Shown: positions 2,171 through 23,136 of the stretch, in pieces | Layout: every line of letters begins with the position of its first letter | How positions within the stretch are numbered: position 1 is the first letter of the stretch | IMG/VR virus record: IMGVR_UViG_3300037106_000054 | Span: 1 to 28,326 of that record | Source: a virus | Reading direction: 5' to 3' (one strand) | Length of the DNA stretch: 28,326 nucleotides | The notes under the pieces: generated by a model | Seen by the model: the letters and a program-made list of their open reading frames with translations, nothing else | The model's database searches: none | What the model was told of the DNA's origin: nothing | Program-made: the position numbers and the translations under genes

Positions 2171-2392
2171 TTATAATAAATTTCCAAGTCCAATTGGTTC
2201 TTCATAACCATAAGGCAAAGAATCAATCATATCTGCATCAAAAAAACCAAAATCATGTGTTTCTTGTACAAGACAAATTTTAATGTAATAAACTGCAACT
2301 AAATTTGGAATAATAATTCTGCAATTACCTTTACATCCAGATGTTGTTCCAGTAGTTAGTGCTTGAAGTATAGTTTTTTTAATTATTTCCAT
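2171..2392 (-). CDS. Small unknown protein of the baseplate operon
   Basis: A 73-residue protein whose ATG (2392-2390) overlaps the stop of the gp6-like gene by one base (TAATG), which implies translational coupling. It has three Cys residues, two of them close together (GCKGNC, about 19-24), then a hydrophobic beta-like segment and an acidic C-terminus. I do not recognise the family. Its coupling to the baseplate wedge gene suggests a structural or assembly role. Confidence 0.65.
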   Translation of the reverse strand: MEIIKKTILQALTTGTTSGCKGNCRIIIPNLVAVYYIKICLVQETHDFGFFDADMIDSLPYGYEEPIGLGNLL

Positions 2393-4239
2393 TATCCCAC
2401 TTTTTTTCTTAAAAACACTGTAATATCTTTTTGTGGATATTTAATTTCAAACATTGAATCTTGCATTGAATGAATTGTATTATTAACCACAGAAATTTCA
2501 CCAGTAGTTGTATTTACTATTGGTTGTGCGATTATATTATTTGAATATTGTCCACCTACTTTATTATAAACCGTTATACCAATAACATTTATAACACCAT
2601 TTGCTGCCAAAATTTCTTTTTGGAGTTGACCAAGAAATATGTCTTGATTCATTTCATGTGTATTAATATCAAGAAAATTTATAACAAGTGTTATAATACT
2701 ATTCGCAACTTGATTATCTGATATATTTTCAACATATACATCAATATCAAATGCTAAATTAAATATTTGACCATCCCTGATTTCAATGTAATCATTAATC
2801 ATTCGATATTGTGATAAATATTCTGCAATATTTGCTTTTAATAAAGAATTACTTGTATTAGATAATTTACCATCCGAACCAATACCAAGTATTGGAATAA
2901 CCACTTTATTATTTTCTTTATATGCATTGGCTCGAAATGGAGAGCCAAATTTTCCCGGCATTTTATATACCTGTAATAAGTAATCTGTTAATGTTACACT
3001 TCTTTCTTGACTTGAAAAATTATATTTGATTAATTGTCTAATTTGTTCTACACTCAAACCATCATTTCCACCAATTGCTGGAATTGGATTTGTTACTTTT
3101 AAACTTCTTTGTACTGTTTGGTTATAATCTTGACGAGAACCTGCTATTCTAAGATTATATGAACCAAATTGTGTAAGCACATCAGTACCGATATTTGAAC
3201 TAATACCGCCACCTGTTCTATATCGTACAAATAATGTATAATTTGCTTTAAGTTTTTCACCTAAAGCAGTATTATTTAAAAAATTTTCAAGAAAATAAAC
3301 ATTACTTACACCTTCTTTTAGAAAACCTTCTTTAAATGCATTTACATCAGCATCACCAGAACCAAATGTTAATTTACAATAACCTTGTGGAGTATATTCT
3401 TTAATGAATTTTTTTGTTACATCAATCCATGTTGCAGATTTCAATCCTTGTGTATTTGTATTAGCACTTGAACTTTGTGTATCTTCAACAAATACACGTT
3501 GTTGCGCTAAATAATCAACTTCAAAATATCTATTATTTGTATTATAAAATTCACTAATTGGTGGATTTGTTGTATAATTAGTTCCTTCTAAAAGTATTAT
3601 ATTTTCAATTTCAATTACATCTGGGTCAGGTAATGTTATACTAAAAAATGGTATTACATCTGTTGAATTAATTATTTTTTTATATATATTTGTTCCACCA
3701 TTTATAACAACTTCTCTTTTAGTAACAAAATAACTTACAGGAATACCATTTGAATCTAAATTTGGTATAATTCTACGATTAGGGTCACCTAAACTACTAA
3801 ATGGTGAATTCCAATCAATATTTGATTGAGTTTCAAAAATTTTACCACCACCAATTACTTGTGCCCCCATATCTAAAACAGGATAATATGATGAGTCTGG
3901 AGCATTACCTAAAACAGGAACTACTACTGTAAAATCTACAACTGTAACACTTGGTCTTCTTGCAGGAATATTAAATCCCATATTTTTTGCAATATTAAGA
4001 ATCGATGACTTTTGTTGTGCATATTCTAAAATATTTTCCTGAAACGCCCTATCAGTATTGATACTCAAGTTATTGGCAACACCAGCATTTAAATCAATAA
4101 GCATTGCACCAACGCTTGAATCGGTAAAATCTTTAAGTACTTCAGGATACATTTGTTTAATTAAGGAAATTAAATCCATTCTTATTTCACTAAATGTTCG
4201 TGAACCATATTGAATTATATTTGTTGTATTATTAGCCAT
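2392..4239 (-). CDS. Baseplate wedge protein, T4 gp6-like (baseplate J family)
   Basis: This 615-residue protein resembles gp6-type baseplate wedge subunits of T4-related phages. The N-terminal block (residues about 13-95) has the typical sequence of FSEIRMDLISLIKQMYPEVL, then DSSVGAMLIDLNAGVA and the block AQQKSSILNIAKNMGFNIP, the hallmark opening of the family. The middle is beta-rich. The block around residues 390-425 (GGNDGLSVEQIRQLIKYNFS, then RSVTLTDY) matches the J-type core where neighbouring wedges contact each other. In T4, gp6 dimers form the inner baseplate ring together with gp25 and gp53; here the gp25-like gene lies upstream in the same operon. The length is close to T4 gp6 (about 660 residues). 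The ATG at 4239 overlaps the stop of the endonuclease gene (TAATG). Confidence 0.9.
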   Translation of the reverse strand: MANNTTNIIQYGSRTFSEIRMDLISLIKQMYPEVLKDFTDSSVGAMLIDLNAGVANNLSINTDRAFQENILEYAQQKSSILNIAKNMGFNIPARRPSVTVVDFTVVVPVLGNAPDSSYYPVLDMGAQVIGGGKIFETQSNIDWNSPFSSLGDPNRRIIPNLDSNGIPVSYFVTKREVVINGGTNIYKKIINSTDVIPFFSITLPDPDVIEIENIILLEGTNYTTNPPISEFYNTNNRYFEVDYLAQQRVFVEDTQSSSANTNTQGLKSATWIDVTKKFIKEYTPQGYCKLTFGSGDADVNAFKEGFLKEGVSNVYFLENFLNNTALGEKLKANYTLFVRYRTGGGISSNIGTDVLTQFGSYNLRIAGSRQDYNQTVQRSLKVTNPIPAIGGNDGLSVEQIRQLIKYNFSSQERSVTLTDYLLQVYKMPGKFGSPFRANAYKENNKVVIPILGIGSDGKLSNTSNSLLKANIAEYLSQYRMINDYIEIRDGQIFNLAFDIDVYVENISDNQVANSIITLVINFLDINTHEMNQDIFLGQLQKEILAANGVINVIGITVYNKVGGQYSNNIIAQPIVNTTTGEISVVNNTIHSMQDSMFEIKYPQKDITVFLRKKVG

Positions 4240-5145: not shown

Positions 5146-5895
5146 TTAATTTAATTTTCCAAAATCAATTCCTTCAAATTCGTTTGGATTCATAATATTA
5201 TTATCATCATAATAATTCATAATTGTTTTATTATATTCCATTGTTTGATATATATCAGTAAAAATTATTCCATTAGGTAATTCTTTTTTCATATTGATAA
5301 ATTTAACCTCATCATTTTGATGAATAACACAATTTTTATTATAAAAAAATTCTTCTGGTAATAATATTTCTAAGCAATGAAGATATTTTTTAATTCTTAA
5401 TTTTATGTCTTTATCATCATAACCATATGAAAATAAATTTTCATTATAACCACCTAATTTAAAATAATTAAATCTACTTAATCCTATAAATCCTAAACAT
5501 TCTAAATCACATAAACATATGTTATTAATGTCATTTGATAAAAATGTTTGATATATAAAATTTATAATATTTTTATTTAATATATTATCACAATCAAAAT
5601 TAATTAATACCTCTCCTGTTGAATATTTATGTGCAATATTTTTGGAATGAGATGAATTATAATATTTTTTATTATTTATTTTAATATACCTTAATAGTCC
5701 TAAATTTATATATTCTTGAAGATTATTCGAAACAAAATTATCCATATCATCTTTAGAATCATAATTACATAATGATATTTCAAATTTATCACTATTAGAA
5801 GCATTAAATTCTTTAATTAATTCAATATTTTTAAATATAGTTAAATTTAAAAACTCTATTCTATTCATACATGTAGTACACAAAGATATTATCAT
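5146..5895 (-). CDS. GT2-type glycosyltransferase with galactosyltransferase-like C-terminal region
   Basis: This 249-residue protein starts MIISLCTTCMNRIEFL, the usual first strand and nucleotide-binding loop of family 2 glycosyltransferases. It has a DxD-type motif (NFDCDN, about residues 98-103) and a later block, FNYFKLGGYNENLFSYGYDD (about 151-170). That block matches the acceptor-side motif of galactosyltransferase C-terminal domains (GGYxExxxxxGxxD). No membrane segment is seen, so the enzyme is soluble. It begins two bases after the gp25-like stop and is followed by the endonuclease, so both appear inserted between the gp25-like and gp6-like genes. A virion glycoprotein or host surface glycan could be the acceptor; this is not shown by the sequence. 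Confidence 0.8.
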   Translation of the reverse strand: MIISLCTTCMNRIEFLNLTIFKNIELIKEFNASNSDKFEISLCNYDSKDDMDNFVSNNLQEYINLGLLRYIKINNKKYYNSSHSKNIAHKYSTGEVLINFDCDNILNKNIINFIYQTFLSNDINNICLCDLECLGFIGLSRFNYFKLGGYNENLFSYGYDDKDIKLRIKKYLHCLEILLPEEFFYNKNCVIHQNDEVKFINMKKELPNGIIFTDIYQTMEYNKTIMNYYDDNNIMNPNEFEGIDFGKLN

Positions 5896-8900: not shown

Positions 8901-10289
8901 TTAAATTACTACTAATGTTTTAGCAACTACTGCCTTATAAAATTCTGCACGTTTCTGGGTTACATTTTTTAATGAATATTCAACCTTAAAGTCTTCATAT
9001 AATTGTTCACCAAGTTTTTTTCTTAAATCTGCATCCAATATAAGTCTCTTTAAATACTTAACCCAATATTTTCTTGCATTTTTTGGTAATTCCATCGGAA
9101 TTAATACACAATTTTCCATGTGCTTACCATGTACATTATATGGTGGAATATCTGAACATACTATAGGAAGTTTTCTTGTCCAACATTCAACTTGTTTAAG
9201 ATTCGACTTCATTTTATTAAATGGATTATTGGCAAGTGGAGCAATAACTATATCAGTTTCATCAAGTACTTGTGCATATGTATTTGCTTTTTGTGTCCAA
9301 CGTCTACCAAAATTACCCTCATTTTCATATTTTACGTTTCTTTCAAAATTCATAAGCCATTGAAGATAATCTGGATTTTTAATCATATGATGATTATCAG
9401 TTAAAATTTTTTCATAAATTAAATACACACTTTCAACTGATTTAATATCTCTTTGTTTTTGATTAAAAACATTATTTCTATATTTTTCTTTCAAATCTAT
9501 GGGTAATTTAGGGATTATATCAACATTACCTCTGGAATTATTAATTGCTTTTACTGTTTGAGGTGTCCATAAACCTCTTTTTTGTAATTCATCACCAAAT
9601 TCTTGATTGAAAGTAATATCTGTTGTATTACCTTCAGTATCCCAACCGGAAATAATTACTTTGAATTTATTTCTAGTATTTATGTCATTTGATAATACAT
9701 TCATAACTCCTTCAAGTTGCTCCATATCACCTAAATGCGAACTACCTGCCATATAAGTAATTCGAACCAAACCATCAGGGTCAGGTTTCCAATTATTTTG
9801 AAATTGTTTCATCCAAATAGGGTCAACAGAATTATAAAATACTTCAACATTATCTTTACCAGTTATTGTACGAATTTCTGAAGCAAATAAATCAGTTGTT
9901 GTTGTAACATAATCAGCAATTTTAAGATTTTCAATGATTGGAATATGTAATTTTTTTTCTTGACTCATTATATAAAAAGGATGTTGCCTATGTAATTTCC
10001 AATAGTCATCAATATCAACAATTAATATTGTCCCAGCTTTTCTTAGTTCATTCGCTAATTGAATCATTTTTTGTGTTTCGCCAAGAAATTGGCGGTGATA
10101 ATGTATGATATGAAATGTTTTAAGATAATCAATGTATTTAGGGTCATTAAAATCAATTTGTGGGTTAATTTCAACATAAAAATCTTCTGAATGATTTCTT
10201 TCAAGTTCCATTGCTGGTGTTAATGTTCTAAAATAATTTACTCCAGCACCATCAAGATTGTAAAATAAAACTCTGATTTTTCCGTCCAT
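8901..10289 (-). CDS. GT-B fold glycosyltransferase (GT4-like)
   Basis: A 462-residue protein that begins IRVLFYNLDGAGVNYFRTLT, the first strand and glycine-rich loop of GT-B transferases, followed by HIIHYHRQF and VDIDDYW strand-loop segments. A linker near 165-195 (YNSVDP, then RITYMAGSSHLGD) leads into the C-terminal Rossmann half. There, MKSNLKQVECWTRKLPIVCS and DIPPYN (about 370-395) match the nucleotide-sugar binding region of family 4 enzymes. No membrane segment is seen. It is the first gene of a run of five ending at the 6297-6327 terminator. The radical SAM gene lies upstream with its own spacing. The acceptor is not evident; virion or capsule modification are both possible. Confidence 0.85.
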   Translation of the reverse strand: MDGKIRVLFYNLDGAGVNYFRTLTPAMELERNHSEDFYVEINPQIDFNDPKYIDYLKTFHIIHYHRQFLGETQKMIQLANELRKAGTILIVDIDDYWKLHRQHPFYIMSQEKKLHIPIIENLKIADYVTTTTDLFASEIRTITGKDNVEVFYNSVDPIWMKQFQNNWKPDPDGLVRITYMAGSSHLGDMEQLEGVMNVLSNDINTRNKFKVIISGWDTEGNTTDITFNQEFGDELQKRGLWTPQTVKAINNSRGNVDIIPKLPIDLKEKYRNNVFNQKQRDIKSVESVYLIYEKILTDNHHMIKNPDYLQWLMNFERNVKYENEGNFGRRWTQKANTYAQVLDETDIVIAPLANNPFNKMKSNLKQVECWTRKLPIVCSDIPPYNVHGKHMENCVLIPMELPKNARKYWVKYLKRLILDADLRKKLGEQLYEDFKVEYSLKNVTQKRAEFYKAVVAKTLVVI

Positions 10290-10379: not shown

Positions 10380-11162
10380 TTAAATAAAATTTAATGTGCT
10401 TTTTGGTTTAATTTTATTTTCTATTGTTGGACATAATCCACAACACAATTCTTCTTTTGTAGATAAAAATTTTTTTAATTCATCATTTGAACAATTTGAA
10501 CTTAATGGTTGATACATATCAAATTCTTTCCAATATTGTTTTATTTCAGGATATTTTATTTTTTGTAATTGATAATATGTTACAATTGGACATTTCCATA
10601 ATTTGCCATCATATAATTGTTTGCAAGAAACATCCCAACATACACTATAACTTTTTTTGGGATTATTTTCATTATGAAATGGTCGTATTAAATTATCAAT
10701 TCCGTTATATCTTTTAGACCAAATTTTAGTATTATCTATCACATCATATTTTATATCATATTTATTAACCCATTGATTTACCAATTCTAAATTTTCGTTT
10801 AAATTATGACCATGTAATGATATTTTTAAAAATATATTATTATTTTTTAAATAAATGGGCAAATTTGGATATTTATGTAATAATAATCCGTTAGTTAATA
10901 ATTTTATATTACTATTTTTAAAATAATTTCTTATTAATTCTAATATTTCGTATATTTGGGGATTTAAAAGTGGTTCACCACCAAGTAAATGTATACTACA
11001 AGGTTGAATTTTTTTGTACCATAATAAAAAATCATTTTCAATTTCTTTTAATGTTAATATTTTATTATGTTTACTATTTGTAAGATGATTACAACTTTCA
11101 CAACTTAAATTACAAAGATGAGATATGTGATAATCAATATGAAAATTTGTTTCTATATCCAT
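10380..11162 (-). CDS. Radical SAM enzyme with C-terminal auxiliary cysteines
   Basis: A 260-residue protein with the radical SAM cluster motif C17-x3-C21-x2-C24 (HLCNLSCESCNHL) and the GGEP motif (62-65) that contacts the methionine of S-adenosylmethionine. The C-terminal part holds seven more Cys (176, 181, 192, 225, 241, 242, 245) with CWDVSC and CCGLCP blocks, resembling SPASM-type auxiliary iron-sulfur sites of peptide-modifying enzymes. It is short for that class, so the fold may be compact. It lies between a terminator (11183-11206) and a GT-B glycosyltransferase, suggesting its own expression. No small precursor-peptide gene is obvious beside it. Substrate could be a peptide, sugar or nucleotide; only the cofactor chemistry is well supported. 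Confidence 0.88.
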   Translation of the reverse strand: MDIETNFHIDYHISHLCNLSCESCNHLTNSKHNKILTLKEIENDFLLWYKKIQPCSIHLLGGEPLLNPQIYEILELIRNYFKNSNIKLLTNGLLLHKYPNLPIYLKNNNIFLKISLHGHNLNENLELVNQWVNKYDIKYDVIDNTKIWSKRYNGIDNLIRPFHNENNPKKSYSVCWDVSCKQLYDGKLWKCPIVTYYQLQKIKYPEIKQYWKEFDMYQPLSSNCSNDELKKFLSTKEELCCGLCPTIENKIKPKSTLNFI

Positions 11163-11613: not shown

Positions 11614-12456
11614 TTATTTTAATCCTTGTATTAATGTATCGTTATATTTAATTCCATCATAACCATTTTTCATTGCTTTTTCTGCAATTGCTTTATTTTT
11701 TAGATTCATTGATGGCACATTATATTGCTCACTTAATTTCTCAAAATTTACATGTGGAAACCAATTTTTTGCTAATATATCAACTGGTTCTTGTCCATCT
11801 TTATAAATAACACCTAATGCTTGTATGTCCAATAAATTTTCAAAATCAATTTCATATTTATCATATCCATCAATTGGTTTTAACATAAAAAAGTTTCCAA
11901 TAACTGAATTTTCTTTAATTGGTTCTTTTCTATATGCGACAATTGTTTTTTCATTTTTACTTGGTGTTTCTGCTTGTAATGCAAGATTATCTTCTTCCAG
12001 AGAATCTAAAAATTCTGTATTTGTATTACCCTTACCACTTTCAGCATTATTATAATAATTGATTGCACCTTGATTTTCTACTTCTTCCATATTACGTGCT
12101 TGCTCATATTCGTAAATATCTTGAATCTTATTTAATACCCTTGCTGTATCTTTTTCATTTAAATCAATTTTAATTGCTTTAAGTAACTCATTGTCAATTA
12201 ATGCTTTAGTATATCTGTGGTGTCCATCAATTATTTGATTATCAATGCTTAACCAAATTGGATTCATATCATTAATATTACATTTTTCCATTTCATCTGA
12301 ATATACGACAGGTTGTGATGTTTTAATATCATCGTCTTCACTTGGATTTAATGAAATTAATTCATAATTTATACCTTCTTCATCAAGTTTTTGAAGAACT
12401 ATTTCAAACGGTGCACTAACTTGTGGTAGATGATATGGTCTTCCATTTTTAAGCAT
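11614..12456 (-). CDS. ParB/sulfiredoxin-like and ART-like fusion protein
   Basis: A 280-residue protein with two recognisable parts. Residues about 30-105 hold a ParB/sulfiredoxin-type domain with the hallmark DGHHRYTKA (77-85), which in the family binds nucleotides and may have nuclease or kinase-like chemistry. A charged linker follows. The C-terminal part (about 170-280) has AYR (174-176), a central GNFFMLKP block and NGYDGIKYND (264-273). That pattern resembles the polyvalent-protein branch of ADP-ribosyltransferases, although a clear catalytic Glu is not visible. Such fusions are described for phage polyvalent proteins that can act on host targets early in infection. It heads a unit with a promoter-like element 20 bases upstream. 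The ParB call is firm; the ART call is tentative. Confidence 0.75.
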   Translation of the reverse strand: MLKNGRPYHLPQVSAPFEIVLQKLDEEGINYELISLNPSEDDDIKTSQPVVYSDEMEKCNINDMNPIWLSIDNQIIDGHHRYTKALIDNELLKAIKIDLNEKDTARVLNKIQDIYEYEQARNMEEVENQGAINYYNNAESGKGNTNTEFLDSLEEDNLALQAETPSKNEKTIVAYRKEPIKENSVIGNFFMLKPIDGYDKYEIDFENLLDIQALGVIYKDGQEPVDILAKNWFPHVNFEKLSEQYNVPSMNLKNKAIAEKAMKNGYDGIKYNDTLIQGLK

Positions 12457-12476
12457 AATGTGTTATTAAATTTTAT

Positions 12477-12485
12477 TATAAATAC
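12477..12485 (-). promoter_or_regulatory. Promoter-like element GTATTTATA
   Basis: Exact minus-strand element in the short gap after the HAD gene, 20 bases before the ATG at 12456. Confidence 0.55.
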
Positions 12486-12492
12486 AGTTCTT

Positions 12493-13059
12493 TTAATTTT
12501 TTAATATATTTTGAATTTCTTCACGAATAATATTTAATATTGTAAATTTGTTTTCTAATAAAGATATTTTACCTTCTTTAGCTAAATATATGTTAAATCT
12601 AATACCTTTTGGAATCTGTTTCTTTATTGCTTCATAAGATTGAATATCAGTATCACGGTCTTCATAAACATTTATTTCCTTTAATTCTGGAAATTGCTGA
12701 ATATAACGTAATGTTTTTTTACCCTTATCTGGTTCAGCACGTTTCATATCTACTTTATCAACACTAATATGATTTGCATCAAGTATTGCTTGAACTTGTG
12801 GACGTAGTTTTTCCATTCTTGATGTAAGAATTACCACATAAGTATTTGGTTTTGCTTGTTCTTCTTTTAATTGTTTTAATACACTTGGAAATGGTTTAAT
12901 ATTGAAAACATTTAAATCCAAACTCTCAGGTCTGCCCCACCAACCTTGATATGGATATGGTTTTCCTATTTTCTCAGACCACTGAACTTTACCTATTTCT
13001 TTTTCAGGACTCATTATGAGTGTCGAGTCAAAATCAAATACACAAAGTCTTTTTATCAT
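12493..13059 (-). CDS. HAD-superfamily phosphatase, Swiss-Army-Knife RNA-repair type
   Basis: A 188-residue protein with the HAD motifs: nucleophile block VFDFDSTL (residues 7-14), motif II Thr in VVILTSR (near 76-82), and an acidic metal site in VYEDRDTDI (about 133-141). The segment YQGWWGRPESL (about 37-47) is characteristic of the HAD branch first noted in Swiss-Army-Knife RNA-repair proteins. It likely removes phosphate from a nucleic acid or nucleotide end. The ATG at 13059 overlaps the stop of the PD-(D/E)XK gene as ATGA. An in-frame TTG nine bases upstream is less likely as the start. Neighbouring 2H phosphoesterase and CCA-adding genes support an RNA-end role, which remains inference. 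Confidence 0.82.
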   Translation of the reverse strand: MIKRLCVFDFDSTLIMSPEKEIGKVQWSEKIGKPYPYQGWWGRPESLDLNVFNIKPFPSVLKQLKEEQAKPNTYVVILTSRMEKLRPQVQAILDANHISVDKVDMKRAEPDKGKKTLRYIQQFPELKEINVYEDRDTDIQSYEAIKKQIPKGIRFNIYLAKEGKISLLENKFTILNIIREEIQNILKN

Positions 13060-13559
13060 AACAAACAATTATATTTCATTTCATTAATATTTCCTATTTC
13101 TTCGCAATAAGGTTCAAAAAATCTTTTTGGTATTATATACATATCCATTTCTTTGAAAACACCTTTCTTTTGTTCAATCCTTGCTTTTTTCTTATATTCA
13201 ATTTGATTTATATTTTCAACAATACAATCATGTATTCTTTTTGTTTTAGCAATATATGTAATTTTACCATCACTAATAATCCAATAATCAGCTTTTGTAA
13301 TTAATAATCCTGATTGTCTTCCCCAATATCCGGTTTCAATACAAATATTGCCACTAATACTACCCATTTTATCAAATTTACATTCAATTGTTTTTTGTTT
13401 TTCTGCAAAGTTACCATTAAAAAGTATAATATCATAATAACTATATTCTTCTTTTTTCATATTTTTATATGCAAGAGGAAATAATTTTTCATTTAAATCT
13501 TTTAAACAAAAATCCTCAAATTCAAATCCCATTCTTGATGATTCTTTCCAATCAGCCAT
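13056..13559 (-). CDS. Putative PD-(D/E)XK nuclease
   Basis: A 167-residue protein with a restriction-endonuclease-like core: YYDIIL (Asp43) followed by IECKFD (Glu59-x-Lys61), the D...ExK arrangement of the superfamily. A later strand-helix, SGLLITKADYWIIS (about 83-96), is common in the resolvase-like and Vsr-like branches. There is no DNA-binding finger, so it may act alone on DNA or RNA ends or ride on a partner. It starts one base after the 2H gene stop and ends in TGA, the only non-TAA stop I found, overlapping the HAD start. The close coupling to 2H and HAD genes suggests one pathway. The fold is likely; the substrate is unknown. Confidence 0.7.
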   Translation of the reverse strand: MADWKESSRMGFEFEDFCLKDLNEKLFPLAYKNMKKEEYSYYDIILFNGNFAEKQKTIECKFDKMGSISGNICIETGYWGRQSGLLITKADYWIISDGKITYIAKTKRIHDCIVENINQIEYKKKARIEQKKGVFKEMDMYIIPKRFFEPYCEEIGNINEMKYNCLL

Positions 13560-13560
13560 G

Positions 13561-13944
13561 TTATTTATATTCTACTTCAGTTACTTTACCTGTCACAAAT
13601 ATAGGTCTTTTTAATGGTTGCCAATTAATTAATTTATTTGACATCATTGGTTTACCACCATTTGCTCGATTAACAGCCATTGTTATATGTGCTTTAGCAT
13701 TATGCGTTTCAAAACCACTGACACCAACAGCCATTACTTTATCATCTATAGCGAATTCATTAACACTTAATCGTACTGGTAATCCTAAATATTTTTCAAG
13801 TTCTGGGTCAATTTCACCCATGTTTATTGTCATATGGTCACAAATTATTTTCCAATCATTAGGAATTATTGAACTAAAACGTTCAATAAGTCGTTGTTTT
13901 GACCTATCATCAAGAACGACTGCACTATAAGATATGTTATTCAT
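13561..13944 (-). CDS. 2H phosphoesterase-like protein
   Basis: A 127-residue protein with two H-x-T motifs, HMTINMG (His37, Thr39) and HITMAV (His86, Thr88), spaced as in 2H phosphoesterases. These enzymes open 2',3'-cyclic phosphates or hydrolyse other nucleotide or NAD-derived esters. The small size and sequence around the motifs suggest the branch known from Swiss-Army-Knife RNA-repair proteins, where HAD and 2H activities are combined. Here the HAD gene lies two genes downstream in the same operon. Start and stop overlap neighbours (TAATG with the 13944-14600 gene). Together they could process cyclic-phosphate ends left by tRNA-cleaving host defences; this role is inferred. Confidence 0.78.
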   Translation of the reverse strand: MNNISYSAVVLDDRSKQRLIERFSSIIPNDWKIICDHMTINMGEIDPELEKYLGLPVRLSVNEFAIDDKVMAVGVSGFETHNAKAHITMAVNRANGGKPMMSNKLINWQPLKRPIFVTGKVTEVEYK

Positions 13945-14600
13945 TAATATGTAAATTTTGTTAAAACATTATAATTTTTGTTTAATGCTTTTAATGCTAT
14001 TTCAACTTCTTTAAAGCATTCATTAATACCACCACCACATATTACTAATTTACCTGAAAATTTTTTTAAATAATCCATTAAGTCTGGTATATTAATACAA
14101 TCTTGTGCTGGTTCTAAAAGGTCACGAACAACACTTGTATCATAATCATATTGTCGCATAAATCCATTCCACATTTCTTCATCAATATCACGACTATCAT
14201 TAATATTGTGTTGAATCATATATTTAACAAGATTAACTGTTTCATCTTCTTCAGCACCTTCATCCATACAGGTTCTAAAAAAAGCATAACCTTTATCTAA
14301 GTATTTGATAACCTGTAAATTATCTTCTTCCAATCCATTTTCTAACAACCACATTTTATAATCATTTTCACTTATCATACCTAATGTATCAGCACCATTA
14401 TATAATAAAGTAATTGAATTCATGTTATAAATATTTTCATTAATAAATTTTGTAAATTGATAAATATTAAAAGTAAAACCTTTTTCATATTCTGGTTGAA
14501 TATCAACAGAAATTAAATTAGCGTTTTGAACAAGATTAATTCCAGAATCTTCCAATAATTTATTACGTTGCTGTTCTTTAATTATAATTTCTCTTTTCAT
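13944..14600 (-). CDS. Unknown protein, possibly isochorismatase-like fold
   Basis: A 218-residue protein. A strand NLISVDIQPEYEKG (about 28-41) and the C-terminal block LVICGGGINECFKEVEIALK (about 185-204) recall the first strand and the Cys/Gly loop of isochorismatase-like hydrolases, where a Cys follows a glycine-rich turn. Spacing and the Asp/Lys residues are not clear enough to claim activity. The middle region is acidic and helical (DEGAEEDETVNLVKYMIQ). The gene sits between the ParB/CCA/ART gene upstream and the 2H gene downstream, in the RNA-processing island. I treat the fold as tentative. Confidence 0.6.
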   Translation of the reverse strand: MKREIIIKEQQRNKLLEDSGINLVQNANLISVDIQPEYEKGFTFNIYQFTKFINENIYNMNSITLLYNGADTLGMISENDYKMWLLENGLEEDNLQVIKYLDKGYAFFRTCMDEGAEEDETVNLVKYMIQHNINDSRDIDEEMWNGFMRQYDYDTSVVRDLLEPAQDCINIPDLMDYLKKFSGKLVICGGGINECFKEVEIALKALNKNYNVLTKFTY

Positions 14601-14630
14601 TTAGTTAAAATTTCTTTTATGAAGATGTTT

Positions 14631-17600
14631 TTAAGCATAAAATATTTTATTTTTAATTGGTATTGCTTGCGGAGAATCCATAATATCTTCACCATTTATA
14701 TATAATTCTTCAATTTTTAATGATGTATTTTTAAATAATGTTATTTCTTTTTCATCTTCGCCAAGAGCCAAATCCATATTAGCATATATTGTATTAGTCC
14801 AATCAATATTGTCTTCTTTCACAGATGTTTTTATTATTGCTTTATTATATTTTTTACTATCTCCCCAATGTGCTTCAGCAGCATTTTCTTCCCAAGACCA
14901 ATAAATACCTAAATGTTTTCCTTGTGTACCAATATGATAAATCCAATTATCATCAACTGTCATTTCTCTCCAAATATCAATAGTATCATTTGGTTTTATT
15001 TTTTCTTTTATTTTATCTATTACATCATCATATTTATATTTTAATTCCCATATAAACCATTCTTTAAAATCTTCATTTTGTTCAATAACTTCCTTATCTT
15101 CATCCTCCAAATTATTTTCATATTTATAATATTCAATATATCTTTCATAATTATCACTACGTTTCACATCTTTTATATATTGCGGTGTTATTATATTATC
15201 TGAAGTTATTGAATCAATTGGTGTTTCATTTAAAACATCATTATCTGTAAGTTTCCATAATAATTTATGTTTTAATTTTTCATTATGGCTAAAATCTTCA
15301 TAATTATTTTGTAAAAATTCTAATACTGATGCTTCATTTGGGTCTGAATATTCTGCTCTTCCTCTTCCACTTTCAGTATTCCATATATCATATTCTTTAG
15401 CAAAGAAATTAATATCAACTATTTTATTGTTTACAACATATTTACCATCACCAACTTCATGATATTCTTCAGTAAGATTAATAGGCATACTACCATATTT
15501 AATAAGACCATAATATTCTAAATAAAAATCATATTGTGGATTTTTTCTTTTTGTTGCACGTAATATTTCAATTGATGTTTCTTTTTGGTCTTCACCTCTT
15601 TGAATAAATTCTTCACCCGAATCACTCAATCCAAAATTATTAGAATCACTTACTCTTTGTAATACTTGATAATTGAAATTATTATATACATATTCGGTAA
15701 TTCCTAATATATCTGCCATATCTGCATGATTAAAAGCACCATCAGATTGTGCAACAAATAAGTTTCCATCACTATCAGCAATTGCTCTAACATTTTTATC
15801 AAAATTAGTTAACGATTTTGGATTCTTAAAAAATAAATCACCCTCTTCACTAATTGCATATGGTTTTTCTTTATTTTTTTCTATACCACCCATTGCTTTA
15901 ACATCCATTGCAGTATTTGAATCAGGAACATTAAAAGTTTTTTCTGCATATTTATCTGCAACACCTTCTTGTTTTATTGATTTATTTTTTTGACTTGTCA
16001 AATTTAATAAATCATCTCGATTATTCCTAACATTATTTGAATATACCTTTAACAATAATGATTTTAACATATCACCAATCTCTTTACCTTTTAATCCAAA
16101 TTGAATTAAATCATTGCCATTAATTGCTAGTTCACCAACTGCTTTTGGATATTTGCCTTGTAATAATTCTTGTGCTGCGGTTTCAATTACACTAGGTATT
16201 ATTTGGCTTTGAAGTGATTGTGGTGATGTTACATACATATTATGCACAACTGTTCGTGCTTCAATTAAATTAGTTGCTTCACCACTATCAAATGCCATTT
16301 CAAGTGCTTTAATTTCCTTATAAGTATCAATATCACCCTTTAAATTATTTTTATAAAATTCTGCAGGATTTGGTAATAATCGTATTAATAAATAAATAAA
16401 CTCACCTATTGTTTTAACTTCTTCAAATGGACTTCTATCAATTGTTGATTGTTTTAAATCAAAATTAAAAATTTGTTGAAATAAACCAGTGTCTTTAAGT
16501 AGTTGTATACCAATACGTTTGTCACCTTTTTTTAAAATTTTATCGAACTCAATTAATATTCTTTCTGGCGGAATTTCTTTAATACGACTTGCATTATCTT
16601 TAATCATTTGCATTGTTTGTGGTTCAATTGTAAAATCAAAACGACTTGCAAACCCTATCATTCGCATCATACGTAATGGGTCATCTGAAAATGCCTGTGG
16701 ATTTGCAGCAGAAATTTGTTTATTTTTTATATCTTCCAATCCACCGAGTGGGTCAATAAATTTACCTGAATTAATATTAATTGCCATTGCATTCAGCTTT
16801 GCGTCACGTCTCGTCAAATCATCTTCAATTGGAAGATTTTCATCACTCTGAACATCAAAACCATGATAACCACCTTCACCATTTGGTTTTTCTTTACGTG
16901 GTAACGCTATATCATAATCAGTACCATCTTTATCAATAAATTTTATAACACCAAATGATTTGCCAACAACATCAACTTTACCAAATTTTTGTAATTGCGA
17001 TATTAATAAATCAATTGATGTGTTTCTAACAATTAAATCAATATCTTTATTGGGTTTGTTAAGTACCAAATCTCTCACAACCCCACCAACAGCATAAATT
17101 TCAGACCCTAAGTCATTTATAAGTGATTGAATAAATGGTTTTTGTTTTAAATTATTTACAAATTCAGTAATTTTATTATTTGGTTGTATATTGTTTTCGC
17201 ACATATTCTCTGCAATATTTATTGAATCTAAATCAAAAACTACTTTAGCTGGAAATGATGAAATTCCTAATTCTCGTAATGCATCAAATCTATGACCACC
17301 TTCTAAAACATATGAACCATCTTCATCAATAACAACAATTAGTGGACTAATTTCTTTATTATATTCAATCTGTTTTGCTAATTTTTTTGTTTTTTGTTCT
17401 TCATCAGGAGAATAATATTTTAAATCTCCCATTTGTGGAAATGAATTGAATGAAACTTCTCTAATTCCATTAAGTATTTCATAATTTGTTAATGATGCTT
17501 CAATTGAATTCATGTTTGGAACATCATTTCGAATTATTAATCCATTAATATTATTTCCATTTATTATTGGAAATTCATGATTTAATGTTTCATAACTAAA

Positions 17601-17693
17601 ATTTTGTGCATTACTGATAACAGATTCATTAATTTGTTTTCTCATATAATTTTCAAATAATATTATTTCACTATTAATAATGTCTATTAGCAT
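14631..17693 (-). CDS. Multidomain protein: ParB-like, CCA-adding-type nucleotidyltransferase, ART-like
   Basis: A 1020-residue protein. Residues about 88-155 form a ParB/sulfiredoxin-like domain with EGGHRFDAL (GGH 132-134). Residues about 190-560 match class II CCA-adding and poly(A) polymerase enzymes: AVGGVVRD, the DID metal site (217-219), LTRRDAKLNAMAI (RRD 295-297), DPLGGL and DDPLRMMR (337-344), then the helical C-terminal domain. A long middle of unknown fold follows. The end (about 905-990) has WREM (Arg909), IYWSWE (931-935) and EDEKEITL (979-986), an R-S-E pattern like ADP-ribosyltransferases. An ATG at 17693 is preferred; a TTG at 17729 would run through the promoter-like element. 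The domain mix is typical of injected polyvalent proteins; the nucleotidyltransferase is certain, the ART-like end tentative. Confidence 0.88.
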   Translation of the reverse strand: MLIDIINSEIILFENYMRKQINESVISNAQNFSYETLNHEFPIINGNNINGLIIRNDVPNMNSIEASLTNYEILNGIREVSFNSFPQMGDLKYYSPDEEQKTKKLAKQIEYNKEISPLIVVIDEDGSYVLEGGHRFDALRELGISSFPAKVVFDLDSINIAENMCENNIQPNNKITEFVNNLKQKPFIQSLINDLGSEIYAVGGVVRDLVLNKPNKDIDLIVRNTSIDLLISQLQKFGKVDVVGKSFGVIKFIDKDGTDYDIALPRKEKPNGEGGYHGFDVQSDENLPIEDDLTRRDAKLNAMAININSGKFIDPLGGLEDIKNKQISAANPQAFSDDPLRMMRMIGFASRFDFTIEPQTMQMIKDNASRIKEIPPERILIEFDKILKKGDKRIGIQLLKDTGLFQQIFNFDLKQSTIDRSPFEEVKTIGEFIYLLIRLLPNPAEFYKNNLKGDIDTYKEIKALEMAFDSGEATNLIEARTVVHNMYVTSPQSLQSQIIPSVIETAAQELLQGKYPKAVGELAINGNDLIQFGLKGKEIGDMLKSLLLKVYSNNVRNNRDDLLNLTSQKNKSIKQEGVADKYAEKTFNVPDSNTAMDVKAMGGIEKNKEKPYAISEEGDLFFKNPKSLTNFDKNVRAIADSDGNLFVAQSDGAFNHADMADILGITEYVYNNFNYQVLQRVSDSNNFGLSDSGEEFIQRGEDQKETSIEILRATKRKNPQYDFYLEYYGLIKYGSMPINLTEEYHEVGDGKYVVNNKIVDINFFAKEYDIWNTESGRGRAEYSDPNEASVLEFLQNNYEDFSHNEKLKHKLLWKLTDNDVLNETPIDSITSDNIITPQYIKDVKRSDNYERYIEYYKYENNLEDEDKEVIEQNEDFKEWFIWELKYKYDDVIDKIKEKIKPNDTIDIWREMTVDDNWIYHIGTQGKHLGIYWSWEENAAEAHWGDSKKYNKAIIKTSVKEDNIDWTNTIYANMDLALGEDEKEITLFKNTSLKIEELYINGEDIMDSPQAIPIKNKIFYA

Positions 17694-17705
17694 AAAAATC
17701 TTTAA

Positions 17706-17714
17706 TATAAATAC
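17706..17714 (-). promoter_or_regulatory. Promoter-like element GTATTTATA
   Basis: Exact minus-strand element 12 bases before the ATG at 17693. It decides against the longer TTG start at 17729, which would place the element inside the gene. Confidence 0.55.
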
Positions 17715-17784
17715 AATAAAAAAAATCAATATTTAAAATTTTAAATAAAATTTTGTCCATCATAATAAAATATTAATTATTGTA

Positions 17785-17793
17785 GTATTTATA
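17785..17793 (+). promoter_or_regulatory. Promoter-like element GTATTTATA on the plus strand
   Basis: The only plus-strand gene is preceded by the same element in its own orientation, 66 bases before the ATG at 17860, in the 166-base divergent gap. That the motif turns with the gene supports a transcriptional role. Confidence 0.5.
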
Positions 17794-17859
17794 TACATTA
17801 GAAGAAGATTTAAATTTTTTCCGTAATTATATGTTCTATTTTTAATAAAAAACAAATGT

Positions 17860-18864
17860 ATGAAAAATTATGATATAAACGAAATTGCAAATTTATATTT
17901 TATAAAAAAATACTCATTAGAAAAAATAGGAAAACTCATGCACGTACAGCCAAAAAAAATTAGCAATTTATTAAAGATAAATGGATATGTTTTAGATAAT
18001 AGGTCTCATGATGGTAATAGTAGAAGATATTATGTTGATAAAAATTTTTTTAAAAAAATTGATAATAAAAATAAAGCATATGTATTAGGATTAATTATTT
18101 CAGATGGTTGCATTTATAAAAATGCAATTACATTCACATCTAAAGATATTGAGTTGGTTGAAATCTTAAAGAGAGAACTTAAATCCGAACATAAATTAGC
18201 AACATATAATGTTTTTGATAAAAGAACAAATAAATATTATTTAAGAAATTCATTATCAATTCCATCTAAAGAAATTATTAATGATTTAAATAATTTGGGT
18301 GTTTTTTCTAAGAAATCCTTTGATTGTCAAATGCCAAATATACCTGAAGAATATTTTTGGCATTTTGTTAGAGGTATTTTTGATGGTGATGGAACAATAT
18401 TTAAAGCAACATCAAATAAGGAAGGATGTTTATATTTTTCAATTATTGGGTCGGAAAATTTATTGACAGAAATAAAAAATAAATTTAATTTAGTGGGAAT
18501 ATCTAATACAAAAATAATTAATACTGATTATAAATCAAACAATGGACATCTTATTAGAATTAATTACCATTCATTTCATGATGTTAATATATTAAAAAAT
18601 AAAATATATTGTGATTCTGAAGACTTAAGGTTATCAAGAAAATATGATTTATTTCAAACACTAAGAGAATATAAAAAAGGTAATTTTGACCACACAAAAC
18701 AATTACGACAAATAAAAATGTATGATTTAAATAATAATTTTATTAAACATTTTAATAATTTTCATGAAGTAAAAAAAGAAACAGGATTATCATATAAATC
18801 AATTCATAGAGTTGCGATGGGTATTAGAAAAAACACCAAAAAATATATATTTAAATATATTTAA
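17860..18864 (+). CDS. LAGLIDADG homing endonuclease
   Basis: A 334-residue protein with two LAGLIDADG helices: YVLGLIISDGCI (residues 74-85) and FVRGIFDGDGTIF (169-181), with acidic residues Asp82 and Asp175 or Asp177 as metal ligands. A helix-turn-helix-like segment (about 5-45) precedes them. The C-terminus (about 285-334, MYDLNNNFIKHFNNFHEV, then GLSYKSIHRV) resembles NUMOD1-type DNA-binding modules often fused to homing enzymes. It is the only plus-strand gene, so it is probably free-standing and mobile rather than part of the virion program. It ends tail-to-tail with the triple-kinase gene, both stops sharing TTAA at 18861-18864. No intron or intein boundary is visible. Confidence 0.9.
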   Translation: MKNYDINEIANLYFIKKYSLEKIGKLMHVQPKKISNLLKINGYVLDNRSHDGNSRRYYVDKNFFKKIDNKNKAYVLGLIISDGCIYKNAITFTSKDIELVEILKRELKSEHKLATYNVFDKRTNKYYLRNSLSIPSKEIINDLNNLGVFSKKSFDCQMPNIPEEYFWHFVRGIFDGDGTIFKATSNKEGCLYFSIIGSENLLTEIKNKFNLVGISNTKIINTDYKSNNGHLIRINYHSFHDVNILKNKIYCDSEDLRLSRKYDLFQTLREYKKGNFDHTKQLRQIKMYDLNNNFIKHFNNFHEVKKETGLSYKSIHRVAMGIRKNTKKYIFKYI

Positions 18865-21800
18865 TTTATTTTTTTCTTGTGTTCTCTTGCATAATTATTT
18901 ACAAACTTATTATATATATTTTCACTTATTTTATGATTCATACCGCTTTTTACTTTTTTTCTAAATTCTACTTCTGCTTTATTGGCAATTTCATGTGCAC
19001 CATCTTTGCCACTATCGTCATTACTATACTTTAAGCCATAATATTTCATTAAATGTCTTTCTAGCGTTTCATGTAAAAGTATTGCACCTAAATCATCAGG
19101 TTTAATTAAAAATACATCATCAATCCAAATTTCGTCTTCAGGAATATATTTAGCATATTTTTGCTCTTTCTTTGGTAAATCCAAATCAACGTAATGATGT
19201 CCACCGTCAACATATTCATCGAACGAATTTTTTCTCACATGGTCACCATTAATTGCATATACTTTATAGTCATCTTCTTGAAATAAGAACAATTTATCTA
19301 ATCCATGTATTTTATTGTCTTTTTCAATTTGCTTTTCAAAATCCTTAAATGATTGTTCATTAAGATTATTATTTTTCATTAAAACTAAATAACCACCATC
19401 ACCATCTTCAGCAATAATTTCGCCAGTTAAATCAAATTCATCAATATCTGAAAAATCATTTTCATTTGAATATCTTGTAGCATCTTCAAATGTTTTTGTA
19501 ACCCAGACAATATTATTAGCAGGATATTTATTCAATTCAGCTAATTTTTCTTCAGGTATATTCATTTCTTCATTACCAAGTTCATCTCTTTCAAACCTAA
19601 CAACATCTCCAGCAGATGTACCTTTTTTTTGTGAAAATAAACTATCTACCCGATATGCTTTACCAATATAATTAACATTTTCATTAATTGTTTTAATATC
19701 AAGATTATTAATATCACCTTGATTACAAGCTACACTTGTATTTCCCAAACCACCTAATCTACATTTCTTTTTTACTGTAACAGCTTGTGCTCCTTTCATA
19801 AATGATTTTTTTCCAATTTCATCAAGAGCAAATTTATCTTGTGTTGCATCACCTACAACATGATGATATTCTAAATCTTCTTTTACACTTTCTGGAGTTG
19901 TTGGTACGTTATTATCTGTAACTGGAGATGTATCATTATTTTCATATGGTGGAAAATTATCCTGTCCAATACTATTTGGTGTTGAGAATTTTGAAGTTCC
20001 ATCTTCAGTTATTTTTATATTTTCTGCACCATTCGGTTGTAAGTAACCATTACTAAATCCCACATCAAAAAATGCAATTACTCCATTTTTTTTATATCCT
20101 AAATTAGTATAATTAAAATAATCCAAACTTTCAACTCCATATTGTTTTGCTTCTTCAGCAATTCTTAATATAGAATAAAAAAATTCAGCATCTTCTGGAT
20201 TTTTTGACATATATCCATCAATTTTTTTTGTATCTATGTCCCCATATCCATTTATATAATAATCAATAATATCATAAAGTCTGAGATTAAATATTTTTCC
20301 AAAAATAAAATCAATTCTTTCTTTAAGTCTTTTAAATTTTTGTGGGTCTGTTTTTAATTTTTCCAAAACAATTGCATATGTTTTAGAAATATATGTATTT
20401 TTTGAATCGATTGTAAATACATTATATGGTTGTGCTATATATTTTAATGGTTTATTTATAAGTTTTAAATTTTCTGCTGCTTCACTATTATCTGCAGTTA
20501 TTTTTAAAATTTTATCATCACCAATATCATAAGCAACACCATATTCACCAGCATCAATAAATTTTGGTTCGTTATATCCTCTTATTTTAGCAATTTGTTT
20601 TGCGATATTATCTGCAATATTTCTATTATATTTTTCATCTAATATTTCTTCGTTTTCAGGTAAAAATATAATATTTGCATCTCCCAAATCAGGTTCATTA
20701 ACGCCATAATAATCACCAACATCAAAAAATTTTAAAATACCATCCTCATATCCAAGATTTTTGGGATTACTATAATCATCTGATTTAATATTATAACTCA
20801 ACAGTTCTTTTTTTATTTCAAATAATTCTATTAACCAATCATATGCTTGTTGTCTTTCAATATTAGAAATATTTACTTCAGGTTTTTCTGTAAGTATATT
20901 TTTTGCCAAATTAACTAAATTATTATAATCAAAACGTTTTTTCATTATAATATAGAAATCAACTGTCGTCATATCATTTGGCATAATAGTATCTATTATT
21001 TCAACATTTCGAACAAATTGTTGAACTGGTTTGTCAATAATATTACGTTCAATTATTCCAAAAAATGATTTATTTTTTTCAGTATCAACTATTTTATATA
21101 TATTGTAAACAATTGCAATATGTATTGGTTTTACTCTTATTAATTTAGCTGCAGCATCTGCTTCACTAATATCAGTAGTAAGTTTTAAAATCTTTGTATC
21201 TCCAATATCAAATACATGACCACCAGTACTACCTGCCATATATTCTATAGTTTTTATTCCTAATTTTTCTGCAATTGAATTTGCTAATTGAATTGCATAA
21301 TTTTTATCAAATACGATGTCTTGAACTTGTGGTACTTCATGTTTAATATCTTCATTTATAACATATTCTTCACTACTAAGTGGTTCTCTATCATAATAAT
21401 TTTGTGAAATAAGATATTTTTGAAGTTCTAATAAATTATTATAAAATTTTTTCTTATCATCAACATGATTTAATGTTTCCTTAAGATTATTTACACATTC
21501 ATGAAAATTATCTACAAGTTGTGGCATATTTTTTATAGGCTTATTTGGATATATGCTTCTTCTTATAATAAATTCTTTAAATTCTTCATTTATTACACCA
21601 TCGCCATCACCTACACCATATGGCATTAATGCCCACATTCCATGTCTTTGGTCTTGTCCAACGTTACCTATATCGGAAAGAATATCATCATTACCATTAG
21701 CAAAATTATACAATTCATACATGTGATATTTTTGTTTTTTTTGAGGACTATAATGAGTATCATATACTTCATCATTAAGACCATAATCAGTTAATACAAT

Positions 21801-22422: not shown

Positions 22423-23136
22423 TTATTTTACTGTTTTTGCTTTACTCTTTGCTTGTATTTCTCGAATAGTTTCGTATACAAGTGTTTTTATCATTTCACG
22501 ATTTTCCTGTAAAACTTCTTTAATTCTTTCAACTGCATACATTTCAATGATTGTACCTTTAATTGCTTCTTCTACAACAGGACCAAAATTATCTATTAGA
22601 TAATTATCAACAATTTTCTTTACATTCTCAACCAAATAACCTTCATTAATTTGCATTGGTTGTCCAGAATTTGGATTGTAAGATGATATTCCAGTATTCA
22701 TACCCTTATTCGATACTATTCCTGCAGATATTGCTTCAGCAAGTGTTTGTTTTCTTTTATTTTCAAGGTCTTTATATAATAATTCATCTCTTTCCGGTGA
22801 CATATCAACTGCTTCATGTATAACTGGATGTTGTTGCGGACGTTGTTGTTGTGGATGTTGTTGTTGTGGATGTTGTGGTTCAACAGTTTCATTAATCGGT
22901 AGTCTTGTTGTTTCTTTTTTCTTTACAGCCACTTGATTATCAACAATTTTAACTAAATTACTTGATGCTGTATCTCTACCAGTTTTTAAAGATTCTATTA
23001 ATCCATATAAAAATGTATCTCTTGGTGATGCTCCGAATTGATTCTGTTCACCCATACCATCAGGTGCTATATTTTTCTCTTTTCTACGACTTGCTATTTC
23101 GGTTTTAAGTTTATTTAAATCAGGTTTTGTTGCCAT
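22423..23136 (-). CDS. Unknown protein with Gln/Pro/His-rich repeat
   Basis: A 237-residue protein. A helical N-terminal part (1-75, with SPRDTFLYGLIESLKTGRD) leads to a low-complexity stretch, PQHPQQQHPQQQRPQQHP (about 87-104), probably a flexible linker. The second half is helical, ending in a long amphipathic region (about 165-230: VENVKKIVDNYLIDNFGP and IKEVLQENREMIKTLVYETI), suitable for oligomerisation. There is no catalytic motif. It has its own promoter-like element 22 bases upstream and a gap before the kinase gene, so it may be a separate unit. I do not recognise it; an internal virion or scaffold role is a guess from its helical build. Confidence 0.7.
   Translation of the reverse strand: MATKPDLNKLKTEIASRRKEKNIAPDGMGEQNQFGASPRDTFLYGLIESLKTGRDTASSNLVKIVDNQVAVKKKETTRLPINETVEPQHPQQQHPQQQRPQQHPVIHEAVDMSPERDELLYKDLENKRKQTLAEAISAGIVSNKGMNTGISSYNPNSGQPMQINEGYLVENVKKIVDNYLIDNFGPVVEEAIKGTIIEMYAVERIKEVLQENREMIKTLVYETIREIQAKSKAKTVK
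22829..22878. repeat. Imperfect tandem repeat encoding the Gln/Pro/His stretch
   Basis: A unit of about 15 bases (tgttgttgttgtgga) recurs about three times, with shorter copies at each end. It encodes HPQQQ on the minus strand and is likely to vary in copy number. Confidence 0.75.

Follow-up and report, generated by a model that had tools for sequence, protein, structure and literature searches.

The closest described counterparts of the locus analyzed here are the polyvalent proteins of Iyer et al. (2017), in which kinase, ART, GNAT, ParB, NTase, 2H and metallopeptidase domains are shuffled within one polypeptide that is predicted to be injected with the DNA (PMC5512222). The same report likens these proteins to the polyproteins of RNA viruses and assigns their processing to embedded peptidases; its main text contains no word that begins with 'CCA'. 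For the delivery of many different effectors by large phages at time zero, and for the separation of polyvalent proteins into their parts, the standing proposal is self-cutting metallopeptidases. Here we describe a cassette in a 28,326-nucleotide stretch of viral DNA, positions 1 to 28,326 of IMG/VR virus record IMGVR_UViG_3300037106_000054, which is called the window below. An earlier note on this DNA had picked out six consecutive genes as a candidate RNA-end repair island with enzymes of the CCA-adding, 2H and HAD families. In our analysis these genes belong to a larger polyprotein cassette, whose linkers match the motif class of the phage's own prohead protease. Relative to Iyer et al. (2017), the new element is a candidate protease and cut rule for polyvalent linkers; among the titles and abstract openings listed in searches of the open-licence PubMed Central (PMC) literature, none states that a prohead protease cleaves such linkers.

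A second point of comparison is head maturation in T4 and in jumbo phages. T4 Alt is cut at both ends by gp21, after ITE-6 and LTE-619, and related prohead proteases cut C-terminal to glutamic acid (PMC5694885, PMC10052503); T4 gp23 loses 65 residues (PMC9958956). The present phage has the same kind of equipment, with a gp21-type protease, a gp23-type capsid protein and sites of the ITE/LTE kind. T4, however, packages separate proteins that lose terminal peptides, whereas the present chain, which can reach 2,688 residues, would be cut into many pieces. In the jumbo phages SPN3US and phiKZ, head and ejection proteins are likewise cleaved after Glu, and some of them more than once (PMC5694885, PMC10052503), but the motifs reported there are AxE or SxE, and the cuts described mainly remove propeptides rather than separate effector modules. 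The third comparison is with RNA repair in jumbo phages, where SAK-HAD, 2H and CCA enzymes and ligases have been described with the same proposed logic of healing cut tRNAs (PMC7824862). The difference is that three of these enzymes stand here in one conserved cassette of fixed order, partly within a polyprotein and with no neighbouring ligase seen. Among the open-licence PMC papers listed in searches on tRNA or RNA repair in phage, no report of a CCA-2H-HAD cassette was seen.

With confidence a little above even, we read the locus as encoding, in a T4-related jumbo myovirus, a polyvalent polyprotein that is packaged, cut by the prohead protease and ejected, combined with a CCA, 2H and HAD set for repair of tRNA 3' ends. 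The precursor would be taken into the prohead, where the protease would cut it at [I/L/V/M]-x-E linkers (often [I/L]NE) during head maturation, and the separated modules would be ejected into the host with the DNA. The 2H enzyme would open a 2',3'-cyclic phosphate on the tRNA 3' end, the HAD phosphatase would then remove the phosphate, and the CCA enzyme would then rebuild the tail. For a tRNA cut in its CCA end or close to it, no ligase would have to act; cuts elsewhere in the tRNA would use the phage's own ligases. We are inclined, though not strongly, to see in this a true polyprotein strategy of a double-stranded DNA phage: a chain of interchangeable host-targeting enzymes would be cut in the prohead by the capsid-maturation protease, and its pieces, including most of a ligase-free repair kit, would enter the host. 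If true, the rule is simple, in that the capsid cut motif is also the effector linker. With such a rule, giant proteins that lack annotation in other T4-related phages could be divided into their mature effectors. The conserved CCA-2H-HAD set would, in addition, be a candidate for an early phage response to defences that cut tRNA.

The polyprotein and its modules

The window proteins that were compared are 99-100% identical to proteins on IMG/VR contigs of 349, 103 and 82 kb. The near-identical 349-kb contig is called G001; other G-numbers denote further large records, and L-numbers denote loci of relatives. Judged against these relatives, the first of the six genes encodes the second half of a longer polyprotein; the N-terminal half (Table 1) had been missed by the earlier note. 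The two halves form a single open reading frame (ORF) in L005 (2317 residues) and in L007 (2174 residues). Residues 176-1032 of the C-terminal half align to residues 1447-2317 of the L005 polyprotein with 87% identity; the order of the ART-like and HETLERH modules is swapped relative to L005, and the ParB-like part of the window has no counterpart in the alignment. In the N-terminal half, the kinase/APH-like fold is a weak match from a fold search of the structure model, and the ART and HETLERH modules were assigned by motif. The C-terminal half matches PHROG 2244 (4.5e-58) and PHROG 1033 (3.6e-7); the latter match concerns the ParB-like part, whose Pfam match (PF02195, 0.044) is below the cut-off, and ART was again assigned by motif only.

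Between the halves lies an antisense LAGLIDADG homing endonuclease gene. The first half stops after KKKIN at the point where L005 reads on as KKLKINE/E (a slash marks a predicted cut), and so the homing endonuclease gene sits at a module junction. A split at a junction of the polyprotein would cost little. Relatives of this gene occur in several loci, the closest of them (49-58% identity, in L050, L052 and L086) antisense and more distant ones (L043, L048 and L051) on the sense strand. An intron around the gene was considered and set aside: no Rfam match in the window was above the gathering score, and the region 17000-19500 gave one chance-level match (E 4.8).

Scanning viral contigs with the N-terminal module returned 45 loci with ORFs of 642 to 2688 residues, some of which are cut by contig ends. 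Together with the second half from the window, these made 46 sequences, which were reduced to 37 non-redundant ones. The 37 sequences were segmented where alignments between them break off; the segments fall into 20 shared module families, and their junctions into 98 distinct types with 259 instances. The modules include kinase-like, GNAT, ART-like, metallopeptidase-like and CCA domains and two types of 2H domain, several of them assigned by motif and the CCA, GNAT and 2H domains by Pfam. Disparate effector domains stand in one polypeptide and recombine among relatives, as expected of a polyvalent protein, and on this comparison the polyprotein is a mosaic of shuffled modules.

Two features of the relatives are recorded here as side observations. 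A short cysteine-containing module (KKKCRLGGLGNTSVACNQGDINNL; window 19680-19811) is present in 33 copies in the 37 sequences and is possibly a scaffold or capsid contact. A similar C-terminal tail, INEA[KR] followed by a few mostly hydrophobic residues, is found in L024, L034, L037, L038, L042 and L048 and might be a packaging or scaffold-binding tag.

The CCA, 2H and HAD enzymes

By profile match, the CCA module has the combination of PolyA_pol head and RNA-binding domain that marks a CCA-adding enzyme; its CCA specificity is predicted, and the C-terminal PF13735 is below the cut-off. The 2H protein of the window matches PF08302 tRNA_lig_CPD just above the cut-off (2.7e-5), and 29 of its 31 homologues match this family. 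It has two HxT motifs, with H37, T39 and H86 invariant and T88 nearly so in 31 sequences. The HAD protein matches PF10307 HAD_SAK_1 (1.4e-7), as do 27 of 28 homologues. D12, D14, K115 and D137 are invariant and S83 nearly so in 28 sequences, and we take these five to be the residues of HAD catalytic motifs I-IV. The earlier note had reasoned that its repair idea would fail with broken 2H and HAD active sites; the catalytic residues of both enzymes proved to be conserved, with structure predicted for the 2H protein alone. When the sequences of solved structures were searched with 2H and HAD profiles, no match rose above chance level. Among deposited phages, the HAD protein matches 5 records and the 2H protein 4, all below 60% identity, and the CCA protein matches 451. 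In LR756504 (636 kb), CCA and HAD are encoded by different genes, and no polyprotein lies near them.

The same idea depended on the three genes occurring together elsewhere, and they do so in a nearly all-or-none manner; they are the most constant set of enzymes in the cassette. Homologues of the ParB-like/ART-like gene that closes the cassette were found at 55 viral loci; after removal of 9 loci too short upstream and merging of 8 near-duplicates, 38 remained, each with 6 kb or more of upstream sequence. CCA, 2H and HAD are all present in 27 of these and all absent from 9; one locus has HAD only (L086) and one has 2H only (L106). Counted from the polyprotein side, 27 of 36 loci reach the ParB-ART gene, and 26 of the 27 carry all three enzymes, while L021 carries none; both counts are non-independent, since the loci are related. 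When 13 large records were searched whole, all three enzymes were found in 8, CCA and 2H in G017, CCA only in G018 and G020, and none in G005 and G019. The view of the six genes as an island of their own did not hold up, however: the triad is embedded in a polyvalent polyprotein cassette together with other modules that shuffle. ParB and ART are polyvalent modules of the ordinary sort. The PD-(D/E)XK-like gene, found in 15 of the 27 cassettes that reach the ParB-ART gene, is an optional member.

Repair of tRNA by the triad is proposed here from the functions of the three families. A possible alternative, which we rate as plausible but still improbable, is classical tRNA repair, in which the triad would heal cuts in the anticodon loop or acceptor stem and the phage's own RNA ligases would seal them. 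G001 does have RNA-ligase matches at two places, and jumbo phages commonly carry ligases, with SAK-HAD phosphatases placed in that pathway (PMC7824862). The matches are far from the cassette, however (at 21 and 248 kb, with the cassette at ~90 kb), and G008 has the triad with no match to the three ligase families PF09414, PF09511 and PF01139. Repair of anticodon cuts, moreover, needs no CCA enzyme. A T4-type repair unit (Pnkp and Rnl) was not recognized either: the surroundings of the cassette gave no ligase match, and the genome search did not cover kinases. The earlier note, seeing neither enzyme in the window, had called the pathway incomplete. Because G001 holds the two distant RNA-ligase matches, nothing need be missing, and 3'-end healing followed by CCA addition needs no ligase.

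It is rather doubtful that the 2H protein is instead an anti-CBASS or anti-CRISPR cyclic-nucleotide nuclease, whose company with CCA and HAD would reflect a shared counter-defence locus and not one pathway. Iyer et al. (2017) do prefer RNase or signal-nucleotide roles for polyvalent 2H domains (PMC5512222). The structure model of the window 2H (predicted local distance difference test score, pLDDT, 94.8) matches CNPase at Z 13.7 (root-mean-square deviation 2.1, 124 aligned) and the fungal RNA kinase/CPD entry 6u05 at Z 11.2, compared with Z 7.5 for Acb1 (7t27) and Z 6.5 for LigT. As modeled, the protein resembles CNPase and the fungal tRNA-ligase CPD more than Acb1, in line with the family match of nearly all its homologues. 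It shares with the fungal tRNA-ligase CPD and CNPase the 2H fold and the two HxT motifs, and differs from them in being stand-alone or a polyprotein module, without an attached kinase or ligase domain. A 2',3'-cyclic phosphate is the substrate of CNPase, by its entry titles, and of the fungal tRNA ligase Trl1. 2H enzymes leave a 2' phosphate for further clean-up (PMC9503650). The closeness to CNPase and the nearly all-or-none company of CCA and HAD argue against an RNase or signal-degrading role for 2H proteins of the window type, although a second 2H module in L044 has a weak Acb1 match (PF23474, 1.8e-4, below the cut-off). This second, distinct module precedes the usual 2H in some polyproteins (L044 and L025) and is alone in the ORF of L020.

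Module junctions and the prohead protease

The proposed cut rule comes from the junctions between modules. The motif [ILVM]xE lies within 15 residues of the junction in 88.9% of the 98 types, compared with 57.0 ± 4.8% at random positions and 51.7 ± 4.0% in shuffled junction windows; 0 of 300 shuffles reached the observed value. The narrower [ILVM]NE is found at 38.3% of junctions versus 7.3 ± 2.1% after shuffling. No junction enrichment was seen in the shuffled-window test for the variants [ILVM]E, [ILVM]xxE, [ILVM]xD, [ILVM]xK and [FYWA]xE. In a separate test on 221 module starts, [IL]xE was present at 65.2% versus 29.5 ± 3.0%. With one kind of cut motif in almost all linkers, modules could be swapped freely, and the extreme shuffling would be accounted for.

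A given module can follow the motif behind differing neighbours. Among the fused CCA modules of the IMSL type that were listed, 13 of 17 have [ILVM][NTSK]E 22-24 residues before VGGxVRD. Of the 31 loci with this 2H module, 16 carry it fused behind other modules; judged by eye, its left neighbours there are of about five kinds, and in all 16 the motif [ILVM]xE lies 5-10 residues before the domain anchor. In the remaining 15 loci, 2H is a stand-alone ORF, and 14 of these begin 5-6 residues before the anchor (L030 begins at 17, alternative codon). Since the fused motif and the stand-alone start nearly coincide, the predicted cut would yield almost the stand-alone 2H protein. CCA ORFs without a preceding module begin 29-30 residues before the anchor in 4 of the 5 listed (L028 at 54, alternative codon); in fused CCA of the same subtype, the distance from anchor to linker motif is 35-40 residues (L017, L018 and L020), and in the window it is 24.

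Predicted sites in the window polyprotein are given in Table 1. In a structure model that covers modules 1 and 2 (mean pLDDT 79, predicted template modeling score 0.43), residues 192-248, 328-338 and 567-585 form low-confidence segments (<50), and the predicted sites at residues 334 and 573 fall in the second and third of them. Other motif copies, at 13, 397, 489 and 553, are in ten-residue blocks with pLDDT of at least 81, and the copy at 256 is in a block of 72 that adjoins the first low-confidence segment.

For T4 gp21, the named cleavage consensus is (I/L)xE, and the gp22 scaffold is degraded by it. G001 encodes both a T4 gp21-type protease (PF03420) and a gp23 capsid protein (PF07068). 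Each family was found in 1 of the 4 records first searched, with PF03420 lacking a match in the other three (79-218 kb, possibly fragments). Of 28 further records, 12 contain PF07068, and gp21 is present in 11 of the 12 stretches taken beside gp23. All 13 gp23 proteins (from G001 and the 12 further records) have [IV]NE/S at residues 60-62, which is the expected capsid cut site. The whole gp23 is not clearly enriched for [ILVM][NT]E (18 versus 13.1 ± 3.5), and a second conserved copy of the motif, LSE near 361, need not be cut. In 12 sequences of the gp22 scaffold, [ILVM][NT]E occurs 64 times versus 23.9 ± 4.6 expected, a 2.7-fold excess. When the 12 gp21 proteins themselves are aligned, 11 of them show, by eye, [ILV][NTK]E at a shared position near residue 34. 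Auto-cleavage after nine residues, as in T4, would fit G001 (MSMIFPLNE/S) but was rejected, as the alignment with most of the other gp21 proteins begins only near this point. As a side observation, the gp21 gene of 5 of the 12 phages (L013, at G001 214152-216080, and L140, L142, L143 and L147) has an in-frame insertion of about 365-405 residues in the same place, which the other 7 are without; in G001, the insertion has intein-like ends by eye.

A different role for the linkers, which we think unlikely, is that the polyprotein is packaged or acts whole, with the motif serving as a flexible hinge or as a landmark for recombination by which modules are more easily exchanged. Recombination has happened at the junctions, and one of them holds the homing endonuclease gene. 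However, the 165 junction motifs have codon use near background and comprise 59 distinct 9-mers; the motif thus appears to be kept at the protein level and not as a conserved DNA site, and a single DNA recombination site at the junctions was ruled out by the codon use. The enrichment is also specific in spacing and residues relative to shuffled windows, and the motif matches the expected capsid site. A still weaker case can be made for an ordinary polyvalent protein with incidental [IL]xE linkers, processed if at all by its own metallopeptidase domains: release by embedded zincin peptidases is what Iyer et al. (2017) propose (PMC5512222), and there is a HETLERH module in the window polyprotein and HExxH motifs in L031 and L101, but the HETLERH family has 12 copies in the 37 sequences, whereas the junction motifs are general and match the expected capsid cut site.

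Cleavage by the prohead protease followed by ejection remains the reading we prefer, and several observations weigh against it. Sequence and prediction underlie the proposal that the precursor is packaged, cut and ejected, as well as the proposed substrate and reaction order. In G001, about 110 kb separate the head genes from the cassette. A comparison of N-termini by eye identified no capsid-targeting tag; a common MTYxEF-like start of the polyproteins, also noted by eye, could belong to the first fold. HAD and ParB-ART are separate genes that were not seen inside the polyprotein, and their packaging is unsupported. CCA occurs without HAD in G017, G018 and G020, which are outside the clade. 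At the junctions, the reversed motif E.[ILVM] is mildly enriched too (0.692 versus 0.512, z 4.4), the stricter [ILVM][NTS]E is present at only 47.6% of the types, and P1', the residue after the motif, is often acidic (E or D in 68 of 165, S in 11) as opposed to the S of the capsid site. Some motif copies are inside modules and conserved (for example, residues 254-256 of the N-terminal module), and the junctions were defined by BLAST edges, which a shared motif can pull.

Comparison across gene families also tells in part against this preferred reading. In 15 control families, [ILVM][NT]E is at 0.4-1.5 times expectation in 9 and at about 2 times in NUDIX and g169, compared with 2.75 times in the polyproteins; g237, g323, 2H and g154, however, are at 2.6-3.5 times. 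Motif counts per gene family were dropped as a decisive test, because relatives are pseudo-replicates, g237 and g323 are above the polyproteins, and 2H and g154 are about equal to them. The unique junction types were relied on in their place.

Gene layout and neighbouring genes

The six consecutive genes were found where the earlier note had placed them, as six minus-strand ORFs in 11614-17729 (Table 1). Its description of the first five as an overlapping operon was accurate for two of the four boundaries, which overlap by 1 and 13 bp; the other two are gaps of 30 and 1 bp. The spacing between the HAD gene and the sixth gene is 36 bp.

Table 1. Features of the polyprotein cassette, in order along the minus strand, with the basis for each (coordinates are positions in the window; a slash marks the predicted cut)
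Feature	Coordinates	Strand	Basis
Polyprotein, N-terminal half, 1163 residues	18861..22352	-	3 kinase-like, 2 short conserved linker, ART-like and HExxxxH (HETLERH) modules
Predicted prohead-protease site INE/D, module 1/module 2	21351..21359	-	Motif; model segment 328-338, pLDDT <50
Predicted site LDE/K, kinase-like modules 2/3	20634..20642	-	Sequence; model segment 567-585, pLDDT <50
Predicted site ITE/D, before short conserved linker module	20004..20012	-	Motif and module boundary
Predicted site INE/N, before ART-like module	19680..19688	-	Motif and module boundary versus L005
Predicted site LNE/Q, before HETLERH module	19356..19364	-	Motif and module boundary versus L005
LAGLIDADG homing endonuclease gene between the halves, antisense	17860..18864	+	PF14528, 1.4e-9; PHROG 4645, 8.1e-44
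Polyprotein, C-terminal half, 1032 residues from TTG (in-frame ATG 17693)	14631..17729	-	ParB-like, CCA, 2 unassigned and ART-like end modules
Predicted site INE/S, near start of ParB-like part	17625..17633	-	Motif
Predicted site ITE/F, before CCA module	17163..17171	-	Motif; comparison of fused CCA copies
CCA-adding/PolyA_pol head and RNA-binding domains	16467..17099	-	Residues 211-421; PF01743, 8.7e-22; PF12627, 4.6e-18
Predicted site LTE/E, after unassigned repeat module	15468..15476	-	Motif and module boundary
Predicted site LNE/T, before ART-like end	15225..15233	-	Motif and module boundary
218-residue protein, function unknown	13944..14600	-	No Pfam match; relatives only in some loci (sporadic)
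2H phosphoesterase, CNPase/tRNA-ligase CPD-like	13561..13944	-	PF08302; invariant residues; structure model
Possible PD-(D/E)XK-like protein	13056..13559	-	No Pfam match; PHROG 13596; optional in cassette
HAD phosphatase, Swiss-Army-Knife RNA-repair type	12493..13068	-	PF10307
ParB-like/ART-like protein closing the cassette	11614..12456	-	Conserved; PHROG 2859 (unknown function); no significant Pfam match

The families named in the earlier note fared unevenly. The CCA-type nucleotidyltransferase, 2H and HAD assignments are borne out by Pfam, ParB is marginal, and ART and PD-(D/E)XK are recognizable by motif only. The proposed PD-(D/E)XK nuclease is a genuine ORF without a family profile behind the name, as it has no Pfam match and its PHROG is of unknown function. 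Of the two proteins described as ParB-like plus ART-like, the first has the weak ParB match given above, and the sixth has motifs seen by eye (DGHHR and YDGIKY), with G78-H79-H80-R81 invariant in 4 aligned sequences.

The window comes from a structural region of a myovirus: a gene at 2392-4239 encodes a gp6-like baseplate wedge, and homing endonucleases are also present. Upstream of the polyprotein, the gene of the 237-residue g237 family (22423-23136) is the richest of the 15 controls, with [IL]xE at 3.0 times and [ILVM][NT]E at 3.5 times expectation, and may encode another prohead-protease substrate. A radical-SAM gene (10380-11162) adjoins the cassette and has no match at the corresponding place in L005, L006, L007 and L008. 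Glycosyltransferase-like or DUF6734 genes (864-1709, 5146-5895 and 8901-10289) are dispersed among the baseplate genes.

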